DNA of 64,000 bases. It comes from Xestospongia bergquistia (Eukaryota > Porifera > Demospongiae > Haplosclerida > Petrosiidae). The position numbers and the translations under genes were made by a program. How positions within the stretch are numbered: the stretch's first letter is position 1; each line of letters begins with the position of its first letter. Under the pieces are notes generated by a model. The model saw nothing but the letters and a program-made list of their open reading frames with translations, ran no database searches and was not told the DNA's origin. Location: NCBI GenBank assembly GCA_963965975.1, contig OZ014412.1:15018849-15082848 (forward strand), read 5' to 3'. Positions 5,126 to 61,046 of this stretch are shown here, piece after piece.

Positions 5126-5576
5126 ATGAGTAGTAATTATTTCGGTAATTATTTTAACAACATGTGTGTCTGACTTAGTGTTTTTTTCTTCATAGAATAT
5201 AATATTACTGTCTTAAGCAAGATAGGTAAGATAATACCAGTTACATATGGAAGTGTATATGAATGGTGGATCTCACATCCAAATCTTTTTTATACTCAAG
5301 CCTATATCCAGGTATATCATAAATAATCTTATCAGTGTTTTTACTAAACAAATTTTTATACAGGCTGTAGGCATGGATAGAGTGTCTGGCACTTTCAAGA
5401 TGACAATTTCAGATGAAGTAATTCAGGTTGATTTCAATTACGAAGATGGACAAATGCCTTCCTTAAACCATAAAACATTGAGCCCAGGTCCTTATGAAAT
5501 TAAGATGATTGGTGGAATCACTGTTGAAGGTTCAAAAATTAACTGTACTTTGGAACTTTATGATCCAAGGAAATAA
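5126..5576 (+). CDS. Gene C: single-domain family protein, 115 aa
   Basis: Three exons: 5126-5144, 5196-5311, 5364-5576, joined by GT-AG introns of 51 and 52 bp. The ATG at 5126 is chosen because it is shared by all intact paralogues and lies 97 bp after TATA. Leader M-S-S-N-Y-F, then YNITVLSKIG, EWWISHPN at the exon 2 end, then SGTFKMTISDEV, GQMPSL, SPGPYEIKMIGG and CTLELYDPRK. The alternating hydrophobic pattern suggests an all-beta fold. No signal peptide, transmembrane segment or Cys pairing pattern is visible. I do not recognise the family and assign no function. Almost identical to C2 at 13134. The longer ORF reading through intron 2 is a by-product. Confidence 0.85.
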
Positions 5577-9632: not shown

Positions 9633-10088
9633 TTATTTCCTTGGATCAATAACTTCAAAAGTGCAGAAAGCTGCTCCATCTTTAAGATAAGGTCCATTAA
9701 TTATCACAACTACGTAAGGACCCGCGCTCAACTGTTTATGTACCAAGGCAGGCAATTCTCCAGGATTGTACCTGAAATCAACTTCAATTACTTCATCTGA
9801 AATTGTCATCTTGAAAGTACCAGATACTGAATCCTCGCCACCAGCCTGTATAAATGTTTGTGTAATAAAAGCAGTGATTTGATTATTTAAGATATACCTC
9901 AATAGATATAGACCCTCCAGGATTAATAACATTTGGATGTGAAAGCCACCAATCCTTTACAGGTCCATATGTACATGTTATCACTGTACCTGTCCTGTTT
10001 AAGGCAGTAATATTATATACTACAAAGAAAAAACACTAAGTCAGGCAAACATATTGTTAAAATAATTACCGTAATAATAACTACTCAT
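9633..10088 (-). CDS. Gene D: single-domain family protein, 117 aa
   Basis: Minus-strand exons: 10070-10088, 9898-10019, 9633-9845, with introns of 50 and 52 bp. Exon 2 is 122 nt, two codons longer than in C genes. Leader M-S-S-Y-Y-Y, then YNITALNRTG, DWWLSHPNV, a Gly-rich NPGGSISIE stretch, then SGTFKMTISDEV, PGELPAL, SAGPYVVVIINGP and CTFEVIDPRK. All three exons are open and splice sites are intact. No secretion signal. Exon 3 differs from the C type mainly in the middle and before the C-terminus. Its 5' leader has the GAACGAATC form just before ATG, unlike D2. Function unknown. Confidence 0.85.
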
Positions 10089-13133: not shown

Positions 13134-13584
13134 ATGAGTAGTAATTATTACGGTAATTATTTTAACAACATGTGTGTCTGACTTAGTGTTTTTTTCTTCA
13201 TAGAATATAATATTACTGTCTTAAGCAAGATAGGTAAGATAATACCAATTACATATGGAAGTGTATATGAATGGTGGATGTCACATCCAAATCTTTTTTA
13301 TACTCAAGCCTATATCCAGGTATATCATAAATAATCTTATCAGTGTTTTTACTAAACAAATTTTTATACAGGCTGTAGGCATGGATAGAGTGTCTGGCAC
13401 TTTCAAGATGACAATTTCAGATGAAGTAATTCAGGTTGATTTCAATTACGAAGATGGACAAATGCCTTCCTTAAACCATAAAACGTTGAGCCCAGGTCCT
13501 TATGAAATTAAGATGATTGGTGGAATCACTGTTGAAGGTTCAAAAATTAACTGTACTTTGGAACTTTATGATCCAAGGAAATAA
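13134..13584 (+). CDS. Gene C2: single-domain family protein, 115 aa
   Basis: Exons 13134-13152, 13204-13319, 13372-13584. Differs from gene C by only a few residues: leader Y for F, I-P-I-T for I-P-V-T, and EWWMSHPN for EWWISHPN. Exon 3 encodes the same protein as gene C, although the DNA has at least one silent change, consistent with recent duplication or gene conversion. Splice sites and promoter intact. Function unknown; same family as gene C. Confidence 0.85.
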
Positions 13585-14303: not shown

Positions 14304-14667
14304 CTAAATAACCTGAGCAATATAAGGACCTGAGCTCAACTTTCTAGATGTAAGGGAGGGCTTTTGTCTAGGTTTGTAAAAAAAATCAGCCTGAATTTTT
14401 TCACCTGAAACTAAAATCTTGAAAGTACTAGATGCTGAACTTTAGCCAGAAACCTATTACAAAGTAATGTAATAAATTCATTTTTTATAATAAATTTCTA
14501 AAAAACTTTTAGTATTTATTACGTTTGAAGACACTTTCATATGTAACCATGCATGTATTGTTGCAATCGAACTGTTTAAGGCAGTAATATGAAATGCTAC
14601 ATACAAATAAAGAAATATCTCAGGCACACATATTATTAAAATAATTACTGTAATATTCACTGCTCAT
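14304..14667 (-). pseudogene. J2: degenerate family member
   Basis: Exon 1 14649-14667 (M-S-S-E-Y-Y) is clean. Exon 2 starts at 14596 and reads HITALNSS, but the W-W-x-S-H-P region is lost and the reading frame is disturbed. Exon 3 (14304-14453) has an in-frame TAA at 14442-14444 within the SGKGSASGTF segment and ends early at TAG 14304-14306 after G-P-Y-I-A-Q-V-I. The gene has a TATA-like upstream sequence and CAGCTG units, but cannot make a family domain. Copies with the same lesions in units 3 and 4 show it was dead before amplification. Confidence 0.7.
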
Positions 14668-16574: not shown

Positions 16575-17031
16575 TTATTTCCTTGGATCAATAACTTCAA
16601 AAGTGCAGAAAGCTGCTCCATCTTTAAGATAAGGTCCATTAATTATAACAACTATGTAAGGACCCGCGCTCAACTGCTTATATGCCAAGGTAGGCAATTG
16701 TCCAGGACTGTACTCGAAATCAACTTCAATTACTTCATCTGAAATTGTCATCTTGAAAGTACCAGATACTGAACCCTCGCCACCAGCCTGTATAAATGTT
16801 TGCGTAATAAAAGCATTGATTTGATTATTTAAGATATACCTCAATAGATATAGACCCTCCTGGATTAATCACATTTGGATGTGAAAGCCACCATTCCTTT
16901 ACATTTCCATATTTACACGTTATCACTGTACCTGTCCTGTTTAAGGCAGTAATATTATATACTACAAAGAAGAAAACACTAAGTCAGGCAAACATATTGT
17001 TAAAATAATTACCGCAATAGTTACTACTCAT
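16575..17031 (-). CDS. Gene D2: single-domain family protein, 117 aa
   Basis: Minus-strand exons 17013-17031, 16840-16961, 16575-16787. Leader M-S-S-N-Y-C, then YNITALNRTG, KEWWLSHPNV, NPGGSISIE, SGTFKMTISDEV, SPGQLPTL, SAGPYIVVIINGP and CTFEVIDPRK. All open. The bases before ATG are GAAGGAAAC, as in C genes, not the GAACGAATC of gene D, which suggests that the 5' part was exchanged with a C-type gene. Function unknown. Confidence 0.85.
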
Positions 17032-19840: not shown

Positions 19841-20291
19841 TTATTTTCTTAAATCAAGGACATAGAAGGTACAGTGGGCTGTCATACCTTCAACATAAGG
19901 TCCATTAGAAATCTGAACAATATAAAGATCTGGGGTCCTCTTTATATATGTAAAGGAAGGCTTTTCTCCAGGTTTGTAAACAAAATCAACCAGAATATCA
20001 CCACCAGGAACTAAAATCTTGAAAGTACCAGATGCTGAACCTTTGCCAGAAACCTGAATACAAATTTATGCAATAAAAATACTGATTTCATAGTTTATAA
20101 CAAAACCTGGATAAAGGCTTGAGTGTTAATCACATCTGGGTGTGAAAGCCACCAATCATTTACGTTTCCATATTCAACCACTTTTGCTGCACCTGTGCTG
20201 TTAATGGCAGTAATATTATAAGCTACAAAGAAGAAAACATTAACTCAGCACACACATCTTTAAAATAATTACTGAAATAATATTTGCTCAT
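19841..20291 (-). CDS. Gene E: single-domain family protein, 115 aa
   Basis: Minus-strand exons 20273-20291, 20107-20222, 19841-20053, introns 50 and 53 bp. Leader M-S-K-Y-Y-F, then YNITAINSTGAAKVVEYG, DWWLSHPDV, then SGKGSASGTFKILV, KPGEKPSF, an unusual K-R-T-P-D-L-Y-I where most copies have a L-x-x-G-P-Y segment, GPYVEG and CTFYVLDLRK. Open throughout. It belongs with B, G and H (GSASGTFKI subgroup) and is the only intact copy of that subgroup in the left half. The TATA position reads GTGTAAATG, weaker than in C/D. Upstream CAGCTG sites at 20434-20439 and 20475-20480 are 41 bp apart, not 52. Confidence 0.8.
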
Positions 20292-23643: not shown

Positions 23644-24094
23644 ATGAGTAGTAATTATTACGGTAATTATTTTAACAACATGTGTGTCTGACTTAGTGTT
23701 TTCTTCTTCGTAGAATATAATATTACTGTCTTAAGCAAGATAGGTAAGATAATACAGAATACATATGGAAGTGTATACGAATGGTGGTTCTCACATCCAA
23801 ATGTTTTTTATACTCAAGCCTATATCCAGGTATATCATAAATAATCAAATCATTTTTTTTACTACACAAATTTTTATACAGGCTGTAGGCATGGATAGAG
23901 TGTCTGGCACTTTCAAGATGACAATTTCAGATGAAGTAATTCATGTTGATTTCAATTACGAAGCTGGACAAATGCCTTCCTTGGACCATAAAATGTTGAG
24001 CTCAGGTCCTTATAAAGTTAAGATGATTGGTGGAATCACTGTTGAAGGTTCAAAAATTAACTGTACTTTGGAAATTTATGATCCAAGGAAATAA
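23644..24094 (+). CDS. Gene C3: single-domain family protein, 115 aa
   Basis: Exons 23644-23662, 23714-23829, 23882-24094. The most divergent C copy: I-I-Q-N-T before Y-G, EWWFSHPNVFY, I-H-V-D-F, E-A-G-Q-M-P-S-L-D-H, SSGPYKVK and CTLEIYDPRK. All exons open, promoter and splice sites intact. The 3' flank carries a 0.65-kb insertion (24193-24838) absent from the other C copies, which would lengthen or change the 3' UTR. Function unknown. Confidence 0.85.
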
Positions 24095-25477: not shown

Positions 25478-25727
25478 CTAACTAACCTGAGCACTATAAG
25501 GACCTGAGCTCAACTTTCTAGATGTAAGGGAGGGCTTTTGTCCAGGTTTGTAACAAAAATTAACCTGAATATTTTCACCTGAAACTAAAATCTTGAAAGT
25601 ACTAGATGCTGAACTTTAGCCAGAAACCTATTACAAAGTAATGTAATAAATTCATTTTTTATAATAAATCTCTATAAAACTTTAAGTATTTATTACATTT
25701 GAAGACACTTTCATATGGAACCATGCA
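25478..25727 (-). pseudogene. J3: truncated J pseudogene
   Basis: Exon 3 (25478-25627) has the same TAA in the SGKGSASG segment as J2 and ends at TAG 25478-25480. Exon 2 survives only as a short piece and stops at the hairpin breakpoint. Exon 1 is missing. Confidence 0.65.
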
Positions 25728-26712: not shown

Positions 26713-27454
26713 ATGAACTCTAACCTCTCCTGGTCTACTCACATCAATGAAACCTGTTCTAAGGCCAAGAAACTGCTTGGCCACATCTGTCGTCAATTTT
26801 ACTATAACTCTTCTTATTCTGTTCTTATTAAATTGTACTTGACAATAATCCTTCCCATCATTATGTACAGCTTGTCTGTTTGGGATCTATATTCCATTCC
26901 TAACATCAATAAGTAGGAAAAAGTTCAATATTTTGCCCTAAAACTCTGCAGTAAAAATTGGACCTCTAATTATCCTCTACTTTTACAACTCTTCAATCTT
27001 CCTTCTCTATCCTCCTGTAGAACAACATCCAAGCTTGTCCTTTTATATAAGTTCATCTTTAGTAAGCTCTACATTCCTGCTGGCACTTTTTCATTTCAAA
27101 ACCAGTCCTCTTATAATTTACATTCTTCCCATCCTTTAAACCTGAATCTGCTTTTCTCCAGATCTTCTACTACTCTTAACTCCTTCCTTCCCAGTGCTAT
27201 TTCCTTGTGGAATTCCCTTCTCTCACACTCAAAGATCTCAACTCTGCAAGTCAGTTCAAGCAAAATATTACTTATTTACTTTAAAATTATCAGAAATATA
27301 GCATACATGTTGTTCATATATATTCATTTGTTCATCTGTTAATATCATCACTCTTCATATATCATTCACTTCCTATTTCAATTGTTTTTGATGCTTTTCA
27401 TATTAGCTTTGCTATTGAGTGTCTTTTGTGTTTTAATAAAAAAAGAAATTGTTT
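26713..27454 (+). mobile_element. Truncated LINE fragment, copy beta
   Basis: Encodes N-L-S-W-S-T-H-I-N-E-T-C-S-K-A, then a Y-L-T-I-I-L-P-I-I-M-Y-S-L-S-V-W-D segment and later F-L-P-S-A-I-S-L-W-N-S-L, the usual order at the C-terminal end of CR1/Jockey-like reverse transcriptase ORFs. An in-frame TAG follows N-I-N-K. The endonuclease and the catalytic reverse transcriptase motifs are absent. The 3' end reads TTTTAATAAAAAAAG. Confidence 0.65.
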
Positions 27455-28330: not shown

Positions 28331-28781
28331 ATGAGTAGTAATTATTACGGTAATTATTTTAACAACATGTGTGTCTGACTTAGTGTTTACTTCTTCATAG
28401 AATATAATATTACTGTCTTAAGCAAGATAGGTAAGATAATACCAATTACATATGGAAGTGTATACGAATGGTGGTTCTCACATCCAAATCTTTTTTATAC
28501 TCAAGCCTATATCCAGGTATATCATAAATAATCAAATCATTTTTTTTACTACACAAATTTTTATACAGGCTGTAGGCATGGATAGAGTGTCTGGCACTTT
28601 CAAGATGATAATTTCAGATGAAGTAATTCAGGTTGATTTCAATTACGAAGCTGGACAAATGCCTTCCTTAAACCATAAAATGTTGAGCCCAGGTCCTTAT
28701 GAAATTAAGATGATTGGTGGAATCACTGTTGAAGGTTCAAAAATTAACTGTACTTTGGAACTTTATGATCCAAGGAAATAA
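28331..28781 (+). CDS. Gene C4: single-domain family protein, 115 aa
   Basis: Exons 28331-28349, 28401-28516, 28569-28781. Protein of C type: YNITVLSKIG, EWWFSHPNLFY, SGTFKMIISDEV (I for the usual T), EAGQMPSL, SPGPYEIKMIGG and CTLELYDPRK. The promoter, 5' leader (GAACGAATC before ATG) and intron 1 are of D type, matching D4 in reverse. The gene is therefore a natural chimera with a D-type front and a C-type body. Open and intact. Function unknown. Confidence 0.85.
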
Positions 28782-29494: not shown

Positions 29495-29859
29495 CTAACT
29501 AACCTGAGCACTATAAGGACCTGAGCTCAACTTTCTAGATGTAAGGGAGAACTTTTGTTTAGGTTTGTAACAAAAATTAACCTGAATTTTTTCACCTGAA
29601 ACTAAAATCTTGAAAGTACTAGATGCTGAACTTTAGCCAGAAACCTATTACAAAGTAATGTAATAAATTCATTTTTTATAATAAATTTCTAAAAAACTTT
29701 TAGTATTTATTACGTTTGAAGACACATTTCATATGTAACCATGCATGTATTGTTGCAATCGAACTGTTTAAGGCAGTAATATGAAATGCTACATACAAAT
29801 AAAGAAATATCTCAGGCACACATATTATTAAAATAATTACTGTAATATTCACTGCTCAT
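29495..29859 (-). pseudogene. J4: degenerate family member
   Basis: Exon 1 29841-29859, degraded exon 2, and exon 3 29495-29644 with the same in-frame TAA seen in J2 and J3. Ends at TAG 29495-29497. Confidence 0.65.
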
Positions 29860-31934: not shown

Positions 31935-32390
31935 TTATTTCCTTGGATCAATAACTTCAAAAGTGCAGAAAGCTGCTCCATCTTTAAGATAAGGTCCATT
32001 AATTATCACAACTACGTAAGGACCCGCGCTCAACTGTTTATGTACCAAGGCAGGCAATTGTCCAGGATTGTACCTGAAATCAAATTCAATTACTTCATCT
32101 GAAATTGTCATCTTGAAAGTACCAGATACTGAACCCTCGCCACAAGCCTGTATAAATGTTTGTGTAATAAAAGCACTAATTTGATTATTTATGATATACC
32201 TCAATAGATATAGCCCCTCCAGGATTAATCACATTTGGATGTGAAAGCCACCAATCCTTTACATATCCATATGTACACGTTATCACTGTACCTGTCCTGT
32301 TTAAGGCTGTAATATTATATACTACAAGGAAAAAACACTAAGTCAGACACACATGTTGTTAAAATAATTACCGTAATAATTGCTACTCAT
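31935..32390 (-). CDS. Gene D4: single-domain family protein, 117 aa
   Basis: Minus-strand exons 32372-32390, 32200-32321, 31935-32147. Leader M-S-S-N-Y-Y, then YNITALNRTG, KDWWLSHPNV, NPGGAISIE, then C-G-E-G-S (Cys where D and D2 have Gly), SGTFKMTISDEV, E-F-D-F, NPGQLPAL, SAGPYVVVIINGP and CTFEVIDPRK. Open. Together with C4 it forms a convergent pair, with the two promoters facing each other across the 3.9-kb centre of the inverted repeat. Function unknown. Confidence 0.85.
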
Positions 32391-33261: not shown

Positions 33262-34000
33262 AAACAATTTCTTTTTTTATTAAAACACAAAAGACACTCA
33301 ATAGCAAAGCTAATATGAAAAGCATCAAAAACAATAGAAATAGGAAGTGAATGATTTATGAAGAGTGATGATATTAACACGTGAATGAATGAATATATAT
33401 GAACAACATGTATGCTATATTTCTGATAATTTTAAAGTAAATAAGTAATATTTTGCTTGAACTGCCTTGCAGAGTTGAGATCTTTGAGTGATGAGGGAAG
33501 GGAATTCCACAATGAAATAGCACTGGGAAGGAAGGAGTTGAGGGTAGTAGAAGATCTGGAGAAAAGCAGATTCAGGTTTAAAGGATGGGAAGAATGTAAA
33601 TTATAAGAGGACTAGTTTTAAAATGAAAAAGAGCCAGCAGGAATGTAGAGCTTACTAAAGATGAACTTGTATAAAAGGACAAGCTTGGATGTTGTTCTAT
33701 GGGAGGATAGAGAAGGAAGATTGAAGAGTTGCAAAAGTAGAGGATAATTAGAGGTCCAATTTTTACTGCAGAGTTCTAGTGCAAAATATTGAAGTTTTTC
33801 CAATTTATTGATGTTAGGAATGGAATATAGATCCCAAACAGACAAACTGTACATAATGATGGGAAGGATTATTGTCAAGTACAATTTAATAAGAACAGAA
33901 TAAGAAGAGTTATAGTAAAATTGACGATAGATGTGGCCAAGCGGTTTCCTGGCCTTAGAACAGGTTTCATTGATGTAAGTAGACCAGGAGAGGTTAGAGT
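33262..34000 (-). mobile_element. Truncated LINE fragment, copy gamma
   Basis: Same element as the beta copy, here with a longer open C-terminal frame (33618-34004) because the TAG after N-I-N-K is not present. Inserted into repeat R at the same place as the beta and delta copies, so all four moved with the surrounding DNA. Confidence 0.65.
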
Positions 34001-34893
34001 TCATAAAATATTCATTGCCTGAATTGGACTACTGATATTATATTACATTAAACATTAAAGATTGTTGAAGTTTGATTAAAAGAATTATAATTATCCATAT
34101 GTTTAAATGGTTTTATTCTCAGAATACTCATATAGAAGCCATTAACAAGTACAATTAACAAACTTGTAAGACTTACATTTTCAACATGGTCATAGTATAT
34201 ACTATATACAATAGAGCTCTTTGAAGACAATGTATGAATTCATTTCCAAGAAAATGTTTATTAAATATATAAATTTGCTTAATATGATTATTCCAGGAAA
34301 TGCTAGTTCTATAATTGGACATGTAACTTGACTCTTAGACCTTATATATAATCCTATACATAGTGTACTTCATATATAATATATATAATAACATTAACAT
34401 AATCAGTTTAAAGTACATGTACCTGTCATTGGATTTACCTATACTATGATATTCCTATCACTGCAAAGATATCATTACCGGTGACCAATGGTAACACCCT
34501 CAATATTTTAGTATTTAATTTTTGATTTTGTACCAAAATTATGAACTTAATATTTCTCTCTACTTACTAAACTAGTATGTTAATTCCTTCATAGTGGTTA
34601 GTAGTTGGACCATTAACTATTATAGTGTCAATTATTACAAGTTTCTACTGAAGGTATGACTGTAAACTTATTAGAAGCAAAATTTAATAATAATTTGTAA
34701 TGCAACAAGTTAGTAAAGTTGAGAGCTTTTTACACAGAAGTTATTACATTAAAATTGGTAGAACCTTTCGCCAAAAGACATACCAGTACACAAATAAAGA
34801 TGAGAACTACTTGTTTGTAAATATGACAGTCATCATATATATAGTTTCTTTGAAAAGTCTACAAGGACTTATGTTAGCTGTCATTGTAGATTA

Positions 34894-35192: not shown

Positions 35193-37053
35193 AATCTATA
35201 CTTTCTCTACTAAAATAGTTAAATGTTACTTAAATGAAAAGGTGTTACAACCTATCTTTCTCTTATCTTTTGTCAAAAACAATTGAGGACACATTATATT
35301 TATAAGAGTTATCAAAATTGGAAATGTGATTATGTAATAAAGAAATGCTATCAAAATTTACATTTAAAATACTTTCATGATTTTCACTTTTATTCCATCT
35401 GAAAGCTAATTGGCTTGTTAGTACACTCATTGTGTAATTAAAGGAGCTAAATTTAGCTGTTGCCATTTAGGATATTGATCATCTTCTTTATGCAGTTGTT
35501 GAGCTACATTTGCAGCTGTCACTTTTTTACTTTGAGATTAAAATCTATCACCTTCGTATGGACAGCTGCAGTTATCAACAGTATATTAGAGGGGAGCTGT
35601 CTAGATATTTCCAAGCTGTGTGTAATTTTCAACACTAGAGAATTGTCTAGATCTTGACTTGCATTTCTAGTTAAGTAGTCTATTATGCTTAATTTCACCT
35701 TTTGGTCTCCAGATATCAACATGCAATGAAACTGTAGTTGTTGTCATATGTAGTTAGGAATTCATTCACCCTAACCTTTTAGACAGCTGTAATTATCAAG
35801 AATATAGAAAATGGCAGTAGTTAGGGCAGCTGTTACCCTGTCTATTGCCTTCTTCTGTTTATTTTAAGTATATCAGTAGTAGATGATATCTATTTATGTA
35901 CATTGATAAAAATACATTAGACTATTAACATAACTAGATTCTTGAGCAGCTCTAAGTTGACATGATCTCTTTTTGTTCATTTTAGCTTGATGACATTTAA
36001 TGGTAATGAAAAGTGGTAATAAGCTTTCTCTCTCTAGCTCTTCACACATCATCACACACATAAGTTATTAACTAATTTTGTTATATTTGATCTCATATTT
36101 TGTTTTATAACTAGTAATAATTAATTTATCAATATATCCTTGGAAATATAAATACATTCCATTAATTTAGTTATTAATCCCAATATTAATTTATAGTTGG
36201 TTTGGCATTGTCTAAGTGGAGGTGTCTAGTCAGTTAATTGAGTTATTATTAATATTAACTTAATAATAATTATACATAAATAATATTACACTTTATATAG
36301 GATTATAAAATGTTTAAAATATATTCAACTGACTATTTAAAATATAGTACTATCAATTAATGAAATAAACATTTATCAAATTTTGTAGACATTTTCTTAG
36401 AATGCATGTATCCATTGTCTTCTAATAGTTATATTGTATAGTATCAAATATGGTATGACCACGTTGTTATAGGATAAGTCTTACAAATTCGTTATCTGAA
36501 CTTTAAATAGGGTTTTTGTATGAGTATAATGAGATTAAAACTAATTAATTTATGCTCATAATTTCTTAGAAATATAATTCTTTATAATTAATTATCAATG
36601 TCAATATTTACATGTGGTTTAGTATTGTCTAGTTGGAGCAGTCTAGTCAGTTAATTAAGTTACTATTTAATATAATCATACATGAACTGCAGTCATTATA
36701 CTATCAACAGGATTATATATTTTATCTGAATGTCAATTGAGTGAATCCATGATGTCCAAATATGGTCAATTCCTAGAAAAACAATTTTCAAAATAGTATT
36801 TAATTATGCACCCTGCAAAATTGAATAATATGGACAGTTTCTTAGAATAACCTCATATGATAATTTCTGAGAGTTATACTAAATGTAGTATAAAATGTAT
36901 CATGACCATCTAGTTAAATGGGTAAGTCTTACAAGGTTGTTATTGTAACCTACAAAAGCCTTCTAAATGGGATAATGTCAAAAGTCTTAAGTGCCACAAT
37001 AAAATTAATTTCTACAAATTATTGTTTGCCTTTATGTAATATAAAAAATTATA
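35193..37053. other. AT-rich intergenic, no gene seen
   Basis: Contains CAGCTG sites near 35514-35600, a repeat shared with 22140-22340 (35690-35880), then fragments of repeat R. No exon of the family recognised. Confidence 0.45.
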
Positions 37054-37617
<564 letters not shown>

Positions 37618-39086: not shown

Positions 39087-41294
39087 TCAGATCTCAGTAA
39101 TTTGCAGAGTAGCATTAGCTTTCATGTCTTTCGCAGATGGTTCTTTAACAATATTGACATGAACATGACCTGCACTCAGTTTAATAGGTTTAATAGTAGG
39201 CTTTCCTCTGGCAGAATAATCAAATTCAATCGGGACCTTTTCACTTGCAATTAATATCTTAAAAGTACCGGAGACCTTGTCAACGCCAGTAGCCTGGAAA
39301 ACATCTATAATATTCTGATAGGATTGTTCATATTACATACCTTAATAACACCATTGGCAAAAATGGTGCTAGGGTTGCTTGGACTCCATGATTGATGCAC
39401 TGCACCATATTCAATTACTGCTACCTGACCAATATTGTTTATAACATCAATAGTATAAGCTGTCAATATAGACAAGACAATAAAATGGAACATTAAGGCC
39501 ATGTTATTGAAATTATCAACTCCTTACTTAGGTCACTTGTTATCTGGAACGAAACCTGAGCTTCTAAACCGATAACGGTAGGCCCATTAAGAACCACAAT
39601 AGAATTTGGACCAGTAACTAACATTTTAGAAGTAAAGGTGGGGTTTTGTCCAGCAGCAAAATTAAATTTAATCTCAAATTTTTCACTTTTGATAGAAATT
39701 ATAAAAGTACCACTTACACATTCATCACCAGATGCCTATAAAATCATTTACATTGAACTGCTTAAAGTATTTAGTATAATTATGTACCATGATATGGCCA
39801 TTACGACCTGATTCAACTGTGCTTGGGTTCTTGGTGCTCCAAGTGTTATGAACACTTTTATATTCAATCATTGCCTCCTCACTGCTGCTGTTTAAGAAAT
39901 CAATACTGTATTCTGTCAATATATAAACAAACATATAATAGTGAAGTCATAAATATTACTTGTATTTCTTGTTATCTGAAATGAAACATTAGCTGTTGAA
40001 CCATCAACAGTTGGTCCATTAAGAATCACAACAGCATCAGAACCTTTAGTCAACTTTTTAGCATTAAATACAGGCTTCTTTCCAGCCGTGTAGTCAAATT
40101 CAATTTGAAATTTTTCACTTCCAAGCAAAATAATAAAAGTACCAGATACTTTGAGATAGTCACCATTAGCCTGTTAACATTAACATACTCACTATATATC
40201 ATCAACACATTTACCTTGATATACCCTTTGTCAACAATTACACTTGGATTGCCAGGGCTCCACCAGTCATGAACATCTCCATATTGAATGATGGCATCTT
40301 CACCAGTTTGGTTTATACATTCCATATCATAAGCTGTCACCACTATATATAGATCAAAAGTTTTGAAATTAGAACATATTAAAGTAATCACTGTTACCTT
40401 TATTTTTACAAATCTTAAAAGATACATGAGCTGTAAAGTTTTCAACTTTTGGTCCATTAAGTATCACAATACTATCTGGACCAGATGTCAATTTTTTAGT
40501 GTCAAAAGTGGGCTTTTCTCCAATACCAAAACTAAAATCAATTTGAAATTTCTCACTTCCAACCAAAATCATAAAAGCACCACTGACATTTTTATCACCA
40601 GTAGCCTATAAAATATTTATATTTCACTAATTAAGGTATTAATGTATTATATGTACCATGATATGGCCATTGTCACCTGATTCAACTGAGCTTGGGTTAT
40701 TGGTGCTCCAAGCATTATGTACACTTTCATACTGAATCATTGCTTTCTCACCAGAACTGTTTAAGAAATCGATACTATAAGCTGTCACTGCTATAGATAT
40801 AAAAATGTTAAAACAGAAGATATGTTATTAAAATCATTGTTACTTTCTGGGCTTCTTGATATTTTGAAAGAAACATGAGCTGTGAGGTTTTCAACAGTTG
40901 GTCCATTAAGTATCACAATACTATCAGGACCAGACGTCAACTTTTTACTGTCAAACGTAGGCTTTCCTCCAACAGAAAATTGAAATTTAAATTGAAATTC
41001 TTCATTTCCAAGAAATATCATAAAAATACCACTAACATATCCATCACCAGTAGCCTACAAACATTGATATACATACTAATGACATAGAATATATATAACA
41101 TACCATGATATGGCCTTGTTTAGATACCACATTAGAGTTGCCAGGGCTCCACTCGTCGTGAACATTGCCATATCTTATGACTGCTTTCTCACCAGTATTG
41201 TTTGTAAAATCAATATTATAAGTGCAAGCTGTCAATACACACAGGGCACATATTATTAAAAATAATTATTATGATTACCAATTTTTTCAGTCAT
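39087..41294 (-). CDS. Gene M: five-domain family protein, 554 aa
   Basis: Eleven exons on the minus strand: 41279-41294, 41104-41228, 40844-41054, 40657-40781, 40398-40605, 40215-40333, 39960-40170, 39788-39912, 39537-39735, 39341-39459, 39087-39293. Introns are 44-77 bp, all GT-AG, and the frame stays open from ATG to TGA 39087-39089. After leader M-T-E-K-I come five copies of the domain, each made of two exons: first half with Y-x-I/M-[DE] ... N-x-[ST/I]-[GS] ... Y ... W-S-[PT]-x-N, second half with G-x-x-x-V-S-G-x-F (Leu in place of Val in D3), a G-x-x-P/N segment, G-P/S-[DN] ... LNGP in domains 1-4, and an A-x-V-S-F end. Between-domain introns are phase 1, within-domain introns phase 0. 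Only domain 3 keeps W-W; the others have a single Trp. No signal peptide. The acceptor of exon 4 could be 9 nt earlier. Function unknown. Confidence 0.8.
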
Positions 41295-41382: not shown

Positions 41383-41410
41383 TTTTTATAGACGCGCTCA
41401 TGTGCACGTG
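41383..41410 (-). promoter_or_regulatory. Promoter of gene M: CACGTG plus TATA
   Basis: TATAAAAA on the minus strand at 41383-41390, with CACGTG at 41405-41410 inside GTCACGTGCAC. Gene I has the same pair at similar spacing. No paired CAGCTG here. Confidence 0.55.
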
Positions 41411-42670: not shown

Positions 42671-43410
42671 AAACAATTTCTTTTTATATTAAAACACAAA
42701 AGACACTTAGTAGCAAAGCTAATATGAAAAGCATCAAAAACAATTGAAATAGGAAGTGAATGATTTATGAAGAGTGATGATATTAACAGGTGAATGAATG
42801 AATATATATGAACAACATGTATGTTATATTTCTGATAATTTTAAAGTAAATAAGTAATATTTTGCTTGAACTGACTTGCAGAGTTGAGATCTTTGAGTGA
42901 TGAGGGAAGGGAATTCCACAATGAAATAGCACTGGGAAGGAAGGAGTTGAGGGTAGTAGAAGATCTGGAGAAAAGCAGATTATGGGTTAAAGGATGGGAA
43001 GAATGTAAATTATAAGAGGACTGGTTTTAAAATGAAAAAGAGCCAGCAGGAATGTAGAGCTTACTAAAGATAAACAAGTATAAAAGGATAAGCTTGGATG
43101 TCGTTGTACGGGAGGATAGAGAAGGAATATTGAAGAGTTGCAAAAGTAGAGGGTAATCAGAGGTCCAATTTTTACTGCAGAGTTTTAGGGTAAAATATTG
43201 AACTTTTTCCAATTTATTGATGTTAGGAATGGAATATGGATCCCAAACAGACAAGCTGTACATAATGATGGGGAGCATTAATGTCAAGTACGATTTAATA
43301 AGAACAGAATAAGAAGAGTTATAGTAAAATTGACGATAGATGTGGCCAAGCAGTTTCTTGGCCTTAGAACAGGTTTCATTGATGTGAGTAGACCAGGAGA
43401 AGTTAGAGTT
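42671..43410 (-). mobile_element. Truncated LINE fragment, copy delta
   Basis: Same 5'-truncated element as the other three, inserted into repeat R between TCTATTG and ATAAAATAT. R copies without it (for example near 49640 and 53460) show the uninterrupted site. Confidence 0.65.
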
Positions 43411-44301
43411 TATAAAATATTGATTGTCTGAATTGGACTACTTATATTATATTACATTACACATTCAAAGATTGTTGAAGTTTATTATAAGAATTATAAT
43501 TATCCATATGTTTAAATGGTCTTATTCTCAGAATACTCATATAGAAGCCCTTAACAAGTACAGTTCACAAACTTGTAAGTCTTACATTTTCAACATGGTC
43601 ATACTAAATACTATATACAATAGAGCTCTTTGAAGACAATGTATGAATTCATTTCCAAGAAAATTTCTATTAAATATATAAATTTGATTATGACTATTCC
43701 AGGAAATGCTAGTTCTATAATTGGACATATAAGTTCATTGACTCTGAGACCTTACATATAATCCTATAGATATTGCACTTCCTATATATAATATATATAA
43801 TAACGTTAACATAATCAGCTTAAAGTTCATGTACCTGTCACTGGATTTATCTATACTATGATATTCCTATCACCACAATGATATCATTACTGGTGACCAA
43901 TGGTAACACCCTCAATATTTTATTATTTAATTTTTGATTTTGGTACCAAAATTATGAACTTAATATTTCTCTTTACTTACTAAACTAGTATGTTAATTCC
44001 TTCATAGTGGTTAGTAGTTGGACCATTAACTATATAACGTCAATTATTACAAGTTTCTATTGAATGTATGACTGTAAACTTATTAGCAGCAAAATTACAT
44101 AATAATTTGTAATGTAACAAGTTAGTAGAGTTGAGAGCTTTTTACACAGAAGTTATTATATTAAAATTGGTAGAATCTTTTGCCAAAAGACATACCAGTA
44201 CACAAATAAAGACGAGAACTACTCGTATTTAAATATGACAGTCATCATATATATAGTTTCTTTGAAAAGTCGACAAGGGCTTATGTTGTCATTGCAGATT
44301 A

Positions 44302-44479: not shown

Positions 44480-44930
44480 ATGAGTGTTGATTACAGTAAT
44501 TATTATTTTAATAATATGTGTGATTGAGTTAACGTTTTCTTCTTTATATATAGCATATGATATTACTCTCATAAACAGTTCAGGTGCAGCAATAGTGATT
44601 ACATATGGAACAGCACATAATTGGTGGCTTTCACACCCAGAAGCGATAAATAGTCAAGGATTTATCCAGGTTTGTTAAAGATATGAACTTTATTACATAT
44701 ATATTTGTATTCAGGTTACTGGTAAAGGTTCAGCATCTGGTACTTTCAAGATTTCAGTTAAAGGTGAAGAAATTAAGGTCGATTTTTCTTATGTTCCTGG
44801 AAAAACACCCACTCTTACATCTGAAAAGTTGACCCCAGGTCCTTATGTTGCTCAAAAAACTAATGGACCTTATGCTCAAGATATGACAGCTAAATGCACT
44901 ATCCAAGTTGTTGATCCACAAACTAATTGA
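44480..44930 (+). CDS. Gene G: single-domain family protein, 115 aa
   Basis: Exons 44480-44495, 44554-44669, 44715-44930; introns 58 and 45 bp. Leader M-S-V-D-Y, then YDITLINSSGAAIVITYG, HNWWLSHPEA, GKGSASGTFKISVKGEE, PGKTPTL, TPGPYVAQ, TNGPYAQD and CTIQVVDPQTN. Leader exon is 16 nt instead of the 19 nt of C/D genes. The ATG at 44480 is followed by an in-frame splice. The alternative frame through intron 1 is open and hydrophobic but has no ATG and a TGA directly before it. Intact; no function assigned. Confidence 0.85.
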
Positions 44931-51474: not shown

Positions 51475-51926
51475 ATGAGTGCTGATTACAGTAATTATTA
51501 TTTTAATAATATGTGTGATTGAGTTAACGTTTTCTTCTTTATATATAGCATACGATATTACTCTCATAAACAGTTCAGGTGCAGCAATAGTGATTACATA
51601 TGGAACAGCACATAATTGGTGGCTTTCACACCCAAATGTGATAAATTCTGAAGGATTTATCCAGGTTTGTTATAAAGTATGAACTTTATTACATATATAT
51701 TTGTATTCAGGTTACTGGTAAAGGTTCAGCATCTGGTACTTTCAAGATTTTAGTTAAAGGTGAAGAAATTCAGGTCGAGTTTTCTTATGTTCCTGGAAAA
51801 AACCCCACCCTTAAACCTCATAACTTGACCCAAGGTCATTATGATGCTCAGATTACTAATGGACCTTATGCTCAAGATATGACAGCTAAAGCCACTATCC
51901 AAGTTGTTGATCCACAACGTAAATGA
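51475..51926 (+). CDS. Gene H: single-domain family protein, 115 aa
   Basis: Exons 51475-51490, 51549-51664, 51711-51926; introns 58 and 46 bp. Closest to gene G: leader M-S-A-D-Y, YDITLINSSGAAIVITYG, HNWWLSHPNV, GKGSASGTFKILVKGEE, PGKNPTL, then T-Q-G-H-Y-D-A-Q where G has T-P-G-P-Y-V-A-Q, TNGPYAQD and A-T-I-Q-V-V-D-P-Q-R-K. The Cys before T-I/F-x-V that nearly all single-domain copies keep is Ala here. Intact. Its 3' end and flank are duplicated at 55738. Confidence 0.85.
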
Positions 51927-60621: not shown

Positions 60622-61046
60622 ATGACAGATGTACGTGGTAATTATTAAATGATACTTGTGTATGAATTAACACTTTCCTTTTAATAGTTTGTTCTATTCA
60701 AGTAAGAGATGATACAGATTATAAAATATTCCTTCATTATGGCGCTGTACATAATTGGTGGACCCATACACCACCCGTGATTGTTCACCAGGACTTTATC
60801 CAGGTATATCACTAAATAATCTATAATCAGTGTATTTAATGAATTATTTTGCAGGCTGAAGGCATTGATTATGTTTCTGGCACTTTCAGAATGAAAATTT
60901 TGGATGAACAAATTGTGGTATCTTTCAACACAAGGGAACCAGAGCAAATTAAAATTGATGAAAGTGGACAACGTTTTAAAGTTGCTATTGTTATACAACG
61001 CTCAGGTTTTGCTCTCGACGTTTATGATTCCAATAGAAAAAAATGA
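60622..61046 (+). CDS. Gene I: divergent single-domain family protein, 107 aa
   Basis: Exons 60622-60637, 60688-60803, 60855-61046; introns 50 and 51 bp in the family phases. Leader M-T-D-V-R, then C-S-I-Q-V-R-D-D-T, HYGAVHNWWTHTPP, D-F-I-Q at the exon 2 end, then YVSGTFRMKILDEQ. After that it departs from the family: the G-x-x-P-x-L and L-x-x-G-P-Y segments are replaced by a shorter T-R-E-P-E-Q-I ... G-Q-R-F-K-V stretch, and the end is D-V-Y-D-S-N-R-K-K. Exon 3 is 21-24 nt shorter. Open, with a good promoter and splice sites, so probably functional and specialised. Function unknown. Confidence 0.8.

Follow-up and report, generated by a model that had tools for sequence, protein, structure and literature searches.

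How does a free-standing protein domain become the repeating unit of a multi-domain gene? The question is raised by a gene, here called M, that is located within a 64,000-nucleotide stretch of the genome of the demosponge Xestospongia bergquistia (C2:15018849-15082848; hereafter the window, to which all positions without a contig name refer). Gene M lies on the minus strand, extends from its start codon at 41294 to the end of its stop codon at 39087, and encodes five head-to-tail copies of a domain of about 110 residues. With exon boundaries set by hand, the coding sequence comprises 1674 nt and specifies 557 amino acids; the ten predicted introns all carry GT-AG borders, are between 44 and 68 nt long, and follow the phases 1,0,1,0,1,0,1,0,1,0. 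An automatic splice chain yielded identical exons save for one donor at the end of B2, an in-frame alternative that leads to a coding sequence of 1662 nt. Each module consists of an exon A (119-125 nt) and an exon B (207-211 nt) separated by a phase-0 intron, and the modules are joined via phase-1 introns. The original prediction of a five-module gene assembled from two-exon 1-0-1 cassettes with ten introns is hence borne out, with exact coordinates and a frame that stays open throughout under the predicted splicing. The same organization is visible at the DNA level as direct repeats far above chance, with a 201-nt unit present five times (62-100% identity, spacing 432-449 nt) and a second unit of 122 nt.

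The leader exon of M (16 nt; 41279-41294) codes for MTEKI plus one base of the next codon and is followed by a phase-1 leader intron of 50 nt (41229-41278); a TATA-box-like TATAAA is found 96 nt before the ATG (41385-41390, minus strand). Module 1 (40844-41228) is composed of exon A (41228-41104), a phase-0 intron (41103-41055) and exon B (41054-40844). Module 2 (40398-40781) is preceded by a phase-1 intron (40843-40782) and contains exon A (40781-40657), an intron (40656-40606) and exon B (40605-40398). The same arrangement is found in module 3 (39960-40333; preceding phase-1 intron 40397-40334, exon A 40333-40215, intron 40214-40171, exon B 40170-39960), in module 4 (39528-39912; preceding phase-1 intron 39959-39913, exon A 39912-39788, intron 39787-39736, exon B 39735-39528), and in module 5 (39087-39459; preceding phase-1 intron 39527-39460, exon A 39459-39341, intron 39340-39294, exon B 39293-39087 including the stop codon). 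A simple repeat of the TAGA/TTAG type, about 570 bp in length, is present 3' of the gene (37050-37617).

Iterated profiles of exon A and exon B (E<0.001), scanned against 156.8 kb (a 126.8-kb region around the window and three stretches of 10 kb each), returned 50 exon-A and 52 exon-B matches. Forty-two of the exon-B matches are connected to an exon A by a GT-AG phase-0 intron (the A|B intron), five have an exon A without such an intron, and five lack an exon A. The 42 clean copies correspond to 22 single-domain genes and 20 array modules; the latter belong to M (five), to two further arrays, M2 and M3 (seven each), and to a fourth, broken-looking array (one). An ATG and a phase-1 leader intron were modelled in 19 of the 22 single-domain genes, with leaders of 7-19 nt and, in some of them, two possible donors; the exceptions are one gene in which the ATG is changed to ACG, one with an in-frame stop, and the gene at C2:15093188-15093528, which yielded no leader model. 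In 17 of the 19 modelled genes, a TATA box is positioned 92-105 nt before the ATG, the range into which M also falls. Of the 12 single-domain genes in the window whose A|B intron is clean, 11 possess the leader; the neighbors of M have the same exon split, as had been claimed, and all but one of them also the leader intron. That the free-standing and the polymeric form, with a common exon structure, reside together in one window is confirmed. Since the two exons are common to the modules of M and about 20 single-domain genes, one chromosome region allows a direct comparison of the domain in its solitary and its repeated form; their common 5' end indicates that M retains the single-domain 5' end, to which cassettes have been added.

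Single-domain genes supported by profile match and leader model (coordinates run from the exon A core to the last codon before the stop, with the leader upstream) are found on the plus strand at 5198-5573, 13206-13581, 23716-24091, 28403-28778 and 51551-51923, and on the minus strand at 9636-10017, 16578-16959, 19844-20220 and 31938-32319. A further one, with a 45-nt intron, is located at 44556-44927 (plus), and a divergent one at 60693-60929 (plus), whose listed end is provisional as exon B is recognized over its first 25 codons alone. A broken copy with an in-frame stop in exon A (2087-2446, minus) and three exon-B fragments without exon A (14307-14438, minus; 25484-25612; 29501-29629) were also detected; the fragments have similar flanks and are perhaps one decayed copy carried in segmental duplications. 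Searches of the whole genome (146.46-Mb assembly, 21 contigs) with two exon-B queries gave at least 47 and at least 46 matches, all of them within C2 14.98-15.47 Mb. Other frames in the window (33618-34028, 43027-43437 on the minus strand, and 26917-27342 on the plus strand) have no Pfam match above the cut-off and presumably resemble the C-terminal region of non-LTR reverse transcriptases. Elsewhere in the assembly, COX1-like pieces containing TGA, TAG and TAA stops occur on the nuclear contig C6 (3154917-3155898 and 3199148-3200446) and are perhaps nuclear copies of mitochondrial DNA. In the mitochondrial genome itself (18,997 bp), the COX1 frame reads through nine TGA codons, and within the first 9,999 bp the 12 tRNAs present there, like the three longest frames, are all on the same strand; we take the gene order around cox1 to be of the demosponge type.

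Arrays M2 and M3 each comprise seven modules, 15 exons, 14 introns and 789 codons that are open throughout, with split and phases as in M; their splice chain was constrained to 1-0-1 phases, and hence demonstrates only that such an open model exists. Array sizes are thus 5, 7 and 7. M2 and M3 are carried on an inverted duplication (C2:14989390-14993190 versus 15013221-15009421) with 99.87% identity over 3801 bp, continuing at 97.63% over a further 2.5 kb, and the sixth inter-module intron measures 109 nt in M3 versus 66 nt in M2. In the fourth array (C2:15085185-15086625), one exon B lacks its exon A, and the donor of one A|B intron is GC rather than GT.

Could M be something other than one intact gene? 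That it represents several single-domain transcription units is a reading to which we attach almost no weight. It can draw on intron 9 of M, in which a hydrophobic open stretch starts with an ATG and shares the frame of module 5; in the M2 counterpart of this intron, however, inspection by hand showed no ATG in the corresponding frame after a TAA, modules 1-4 reach their donor without encountering a stop, and the intervals of 47-68 nt are too short for the TATA-to-ATG distance seen in the family. A decaying pseudogene or a tandem-repeat assembly artefact is likewise very improbable. Broken copies and near-identical duplications do exist in the cluster, and the fourth array looks broken, but M, M2 and M3 are open and have kept their splice sites, and corresponding modules of M and M2 differ at 3-12% of amino-acid-changing sites, so that M is not a collapsed copy.

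For the history of the array, a maximum-likelihood tree of 35 domains was computed; M3, being almost the same as M2, was omitted. In this tree the 13 modules require two label changes, against a shuffled mean of 10.8; one single-domain gene (C2:15093188-15093528) sits among the modules, but on a long branch, which makes its place unsure. Modules 1, 3, 4 and 5 of M pair with modules 1, 5, 6 and 7 of M2, and module 2 of M groups openly with modules 2 and 4 of M2 (81/79), with M2 module 3 in the same six-row clade. Its nearest relatives are thus M2 modules 2-4, from which it differs at 3-7% of amino-acid-changing sites, and this closeness of one module to three indicates that array length was altered by whole cassettes.

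The original prediction had ascribed the multiplication of the domain to duplication of a phase-symmetric exon cassette. A cassette-built gene is indeed present, but the free-standing gene does not provide such a unit: in 20 of the 22 single-domain genes a stop follows within 7 codons of the exon B core (the two divergent copies run on), and the free-standing unit is therefore not phase-symmetric, even though an intron 3' of the stop might be present in these genes. Because the single-domain gene has the 5' phase-1 intron only, the second phase-1 border came with polymerization. A possible source of this border is the leader intron. When hand-picked sets of the available introns (8 from leaders, 7 from between modules and 7 of the A|B type) were compared by means of dinucleotide shuffles, inter-module and leader introns gave a median z of 1.41 with 19 of 56 pairs above 2, versus 0.01 (2/49) for inter-module against A|B introns and -0.08 (2/56) for leader against A|B introns. 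A second control, in which donor-anchored scores were ranked against 3717 GTA...AG stretches from the same DNA, placed the likeness to the leader intron of the inter-module introns of M in the top 1.5, 8, 10 and 15% and that of the six in M2 in the top 1.5-11%, with A|B introns at 6-37% (M) and 7-65% (M2). These data are suggestive, and favor rather than prove an origin of the inter-module introns by copying of the leader intron. We envision that a single-domain gene gave rise to the polymer, mainly in one event: a leader-intron copy would have become attached to the end of exon B, whereupon splicing continued into the next domain; the arrays would then have grown and shrunk through in-register recombination. 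In-register growth by unequal crossing-over preserves the frame whatever the phase, and later growth thus needs no phase symmetry.

The domain itself is predicted to be small and beta-rich (all-beta). No domain match above the cut-off was obtained in Pfam, NCBIfam, PHROGs or PDB sequences, the weak names DUF4848, TREH_N and Melibiase_C having E values of 0.015 or worse, and no relative was detected in prokaryote genomes and viral contigs by single-protein scans, which are sensitive to close relatives only. Of two structure models, the more confident one (model 1, derived from the gene at 44556-44927 with the intron read through) has no fold match in the PDB or among viral models; in model 2, with which model 1 disagrees, one coherent group that includes the aegerolysin beta-sandwich ranks above all else. 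The fold may accordingly be of a known type, an aegerolysin/fruit-body-lectin-like sandwich, and the earlier designation as an unrecognized domain holds for its sequence but perhaps not for its fold. The aegerolysin profile PF06355 matched neither any of the 21 domain rows searched nor M as a whole, its single genome match (E 0.37) lying outside the region on C1; PF07367 had no match in the family or the whole genome; PF06369 had none in the family, and none in the whole genome, where no control genome matched either. The first strand begins about 6-10 residues after the initiator Met, which leaves no room for an N-terminal amphipathic helix. In M and the single-domain genes, the leaders contribute 2-7 residues before the domain, too few for a signal peptide, and none is visible by eye.

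All ten module pairs within M have w values of 0.26-0.61, and corresponding modules of M and M2 have values of 0.37, 0.21, 0.63, 1.27 and 1.06; constraint is thus not uniform. For the single-domain genes, pN/pS was calculated for 16 of 19 prepared genes (one of the 16 without a clean A|B intron), which were arranged in groups. Pooled pairs, which overlap, gave 0.41-0.66 for exon A and 1.30-1.62 for exon B in three groups; exon B of the fourth group, a single pair, has no amino-acid-changing versus one silent change. Clear positive selection on exon B was expected, but seven independent sister pairs fall short of significance (exon B 1.47, 40 versus 8 changes, p 0.21; exon A 0.50, 16 versus 9; difference between exons p 0.08). 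Nor is variation focused on loops, as exon-B loops (1.27 bits) and regular structure (1.20 bits) do not really differ among 19 single-domain copies. A tandem duplicate (C2:15362778-15364931 versus 15366850-15368999, the second copy of which reaches the end of the fetched stretch, so that the duplication may be longer) has 18 mismatches over 2154 columns, 11 of which fall into the approximately 210 bp of exon B (Fisher p 1e-7). Ten of these lie in the profile-matched part and none of them is silent, while the eleventh swaps Ser/Arg in the tail; this cluster could also be a short conversion tract from another paralogue.

The reading that we favor, at roughly even chances, is that M is one spliced gene of cassettes whose polymeric form arose mainly once and whose domain is an aegerolysin/fruit-body-lectin-like binder that gains avidity through repetition. 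A possible alternative, to which we give about one chance in three, accepts the gene model but regards the domain as a lineage-specific beta-sandwich unrelated to aegerolysins or lectins, in an intracellular repeat protein with a structural or scaffolding role. The missing sequence and profile matches, the failure of the more confident model to find a fold, the short leader and the constraint on module pairs within M are all consistent with it; the coherent group on top in model 2 argues against it, as does the concentration of amino-acid changes that the tandem duplicate shows in its exon B, a pattern unusual for a scaffold. Of comparable, likewise tentative standing is the proposal that the shared phases are mere inheritance and that ordinary unequal crossing-over between tandem genes built the array, with phase symmetry and a copied leader intron playing no causal part. 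The stop close to exon B in the single-domain genes, the retention of frame by in-register exchange in any phase, and the weak leader-intron likeness under the donor-anchored control speak for it. For two tandem genes to fuse, however, exon B must gain a donor at its end that is spliced in phase 1 to the acceptor of the following domain, and the inter-module introns are closer to the leader intron than chance.

Under the favored reading of a multivalent binder, the compact domain would bind lipids or glycans on the surfaces of foreign or damaged cells; single-domain paralogues would vary the binding face, while polymers would gain avidity. The proteins may be soluble surface binders, either released upon damage or acting inside cells. 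A more elaborate version, unlikely as a whole, combines a leaderless five- or seven-headed cytolysin/lectin-type sandwich, phase-1 symmetry through leader-intron copying, the occurrence of single genes, a module relative and polymers within 0.5 Mb, and single genes that serve as a recognition repertoire, diversifying chiefly in exon B.

How does this family compare with known systems? The M domain differs from aegerolysins (PF06355; ostreolysin A, pleurotolysin A, Cry34Ab1) by the lack of a profile match and by the disagreement of model 1. We know of no polymeric form of aegerolysins. In comparison with the fruit-body lectins and actinoporin-like proteins (AF superfamily; PF07367, PF06369), the M domain is polymeric, has no profile match, and has no room for the N-terminal helix. 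Fruit-body lectins and actinoporin-like proteins are about 140-180 residues long, versus about 110 for the M domain. According to PMC8778704, the actinoporin-like proteins of sponges mostly have no signal peptide, a trait resembling the M family, are often duplicated, and have a truncated or absent N-terminal helix region in the reported cases. A search of the open literature found no report of the M gene family, which, being unnamed, is not searchable by name.

Like the class 1-1 modules discussed in PMC8001218, the domains of M repeat in frame within one gene and are flanked by phase-1 introns, with domain borders coinciding with exon borders, except that the last module ends in a stop. In that paper, the predominance of class 1-1 modules is linked to extracellular proteins with signal peptides, intracellular cases such as titin also being named; intron insertion at domain borders is proposed as their origin, and both the route from domain to module and the dominance of phase-1 borders are treated as an enigma (PMC8001218). 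Measured against that account, the M family is unusual in having no visible signal peptide, in having a 5' intron only in its single-domain gene, and in containing a domain found, among the genome matches in their one region, only alone or as a homopolymer.

The region thus offers class 1-1 modules in a gene that has no visible signal peptide, and one of their border introns predates polymerization. An early-branching animal here preserves, in one place, the single-domain form together with polymers of different lengths, so that related sponges can be used to test the individual steps. Should the assigned fold prove correct, a multivalent form would be added to a group of defence-related surface binders.
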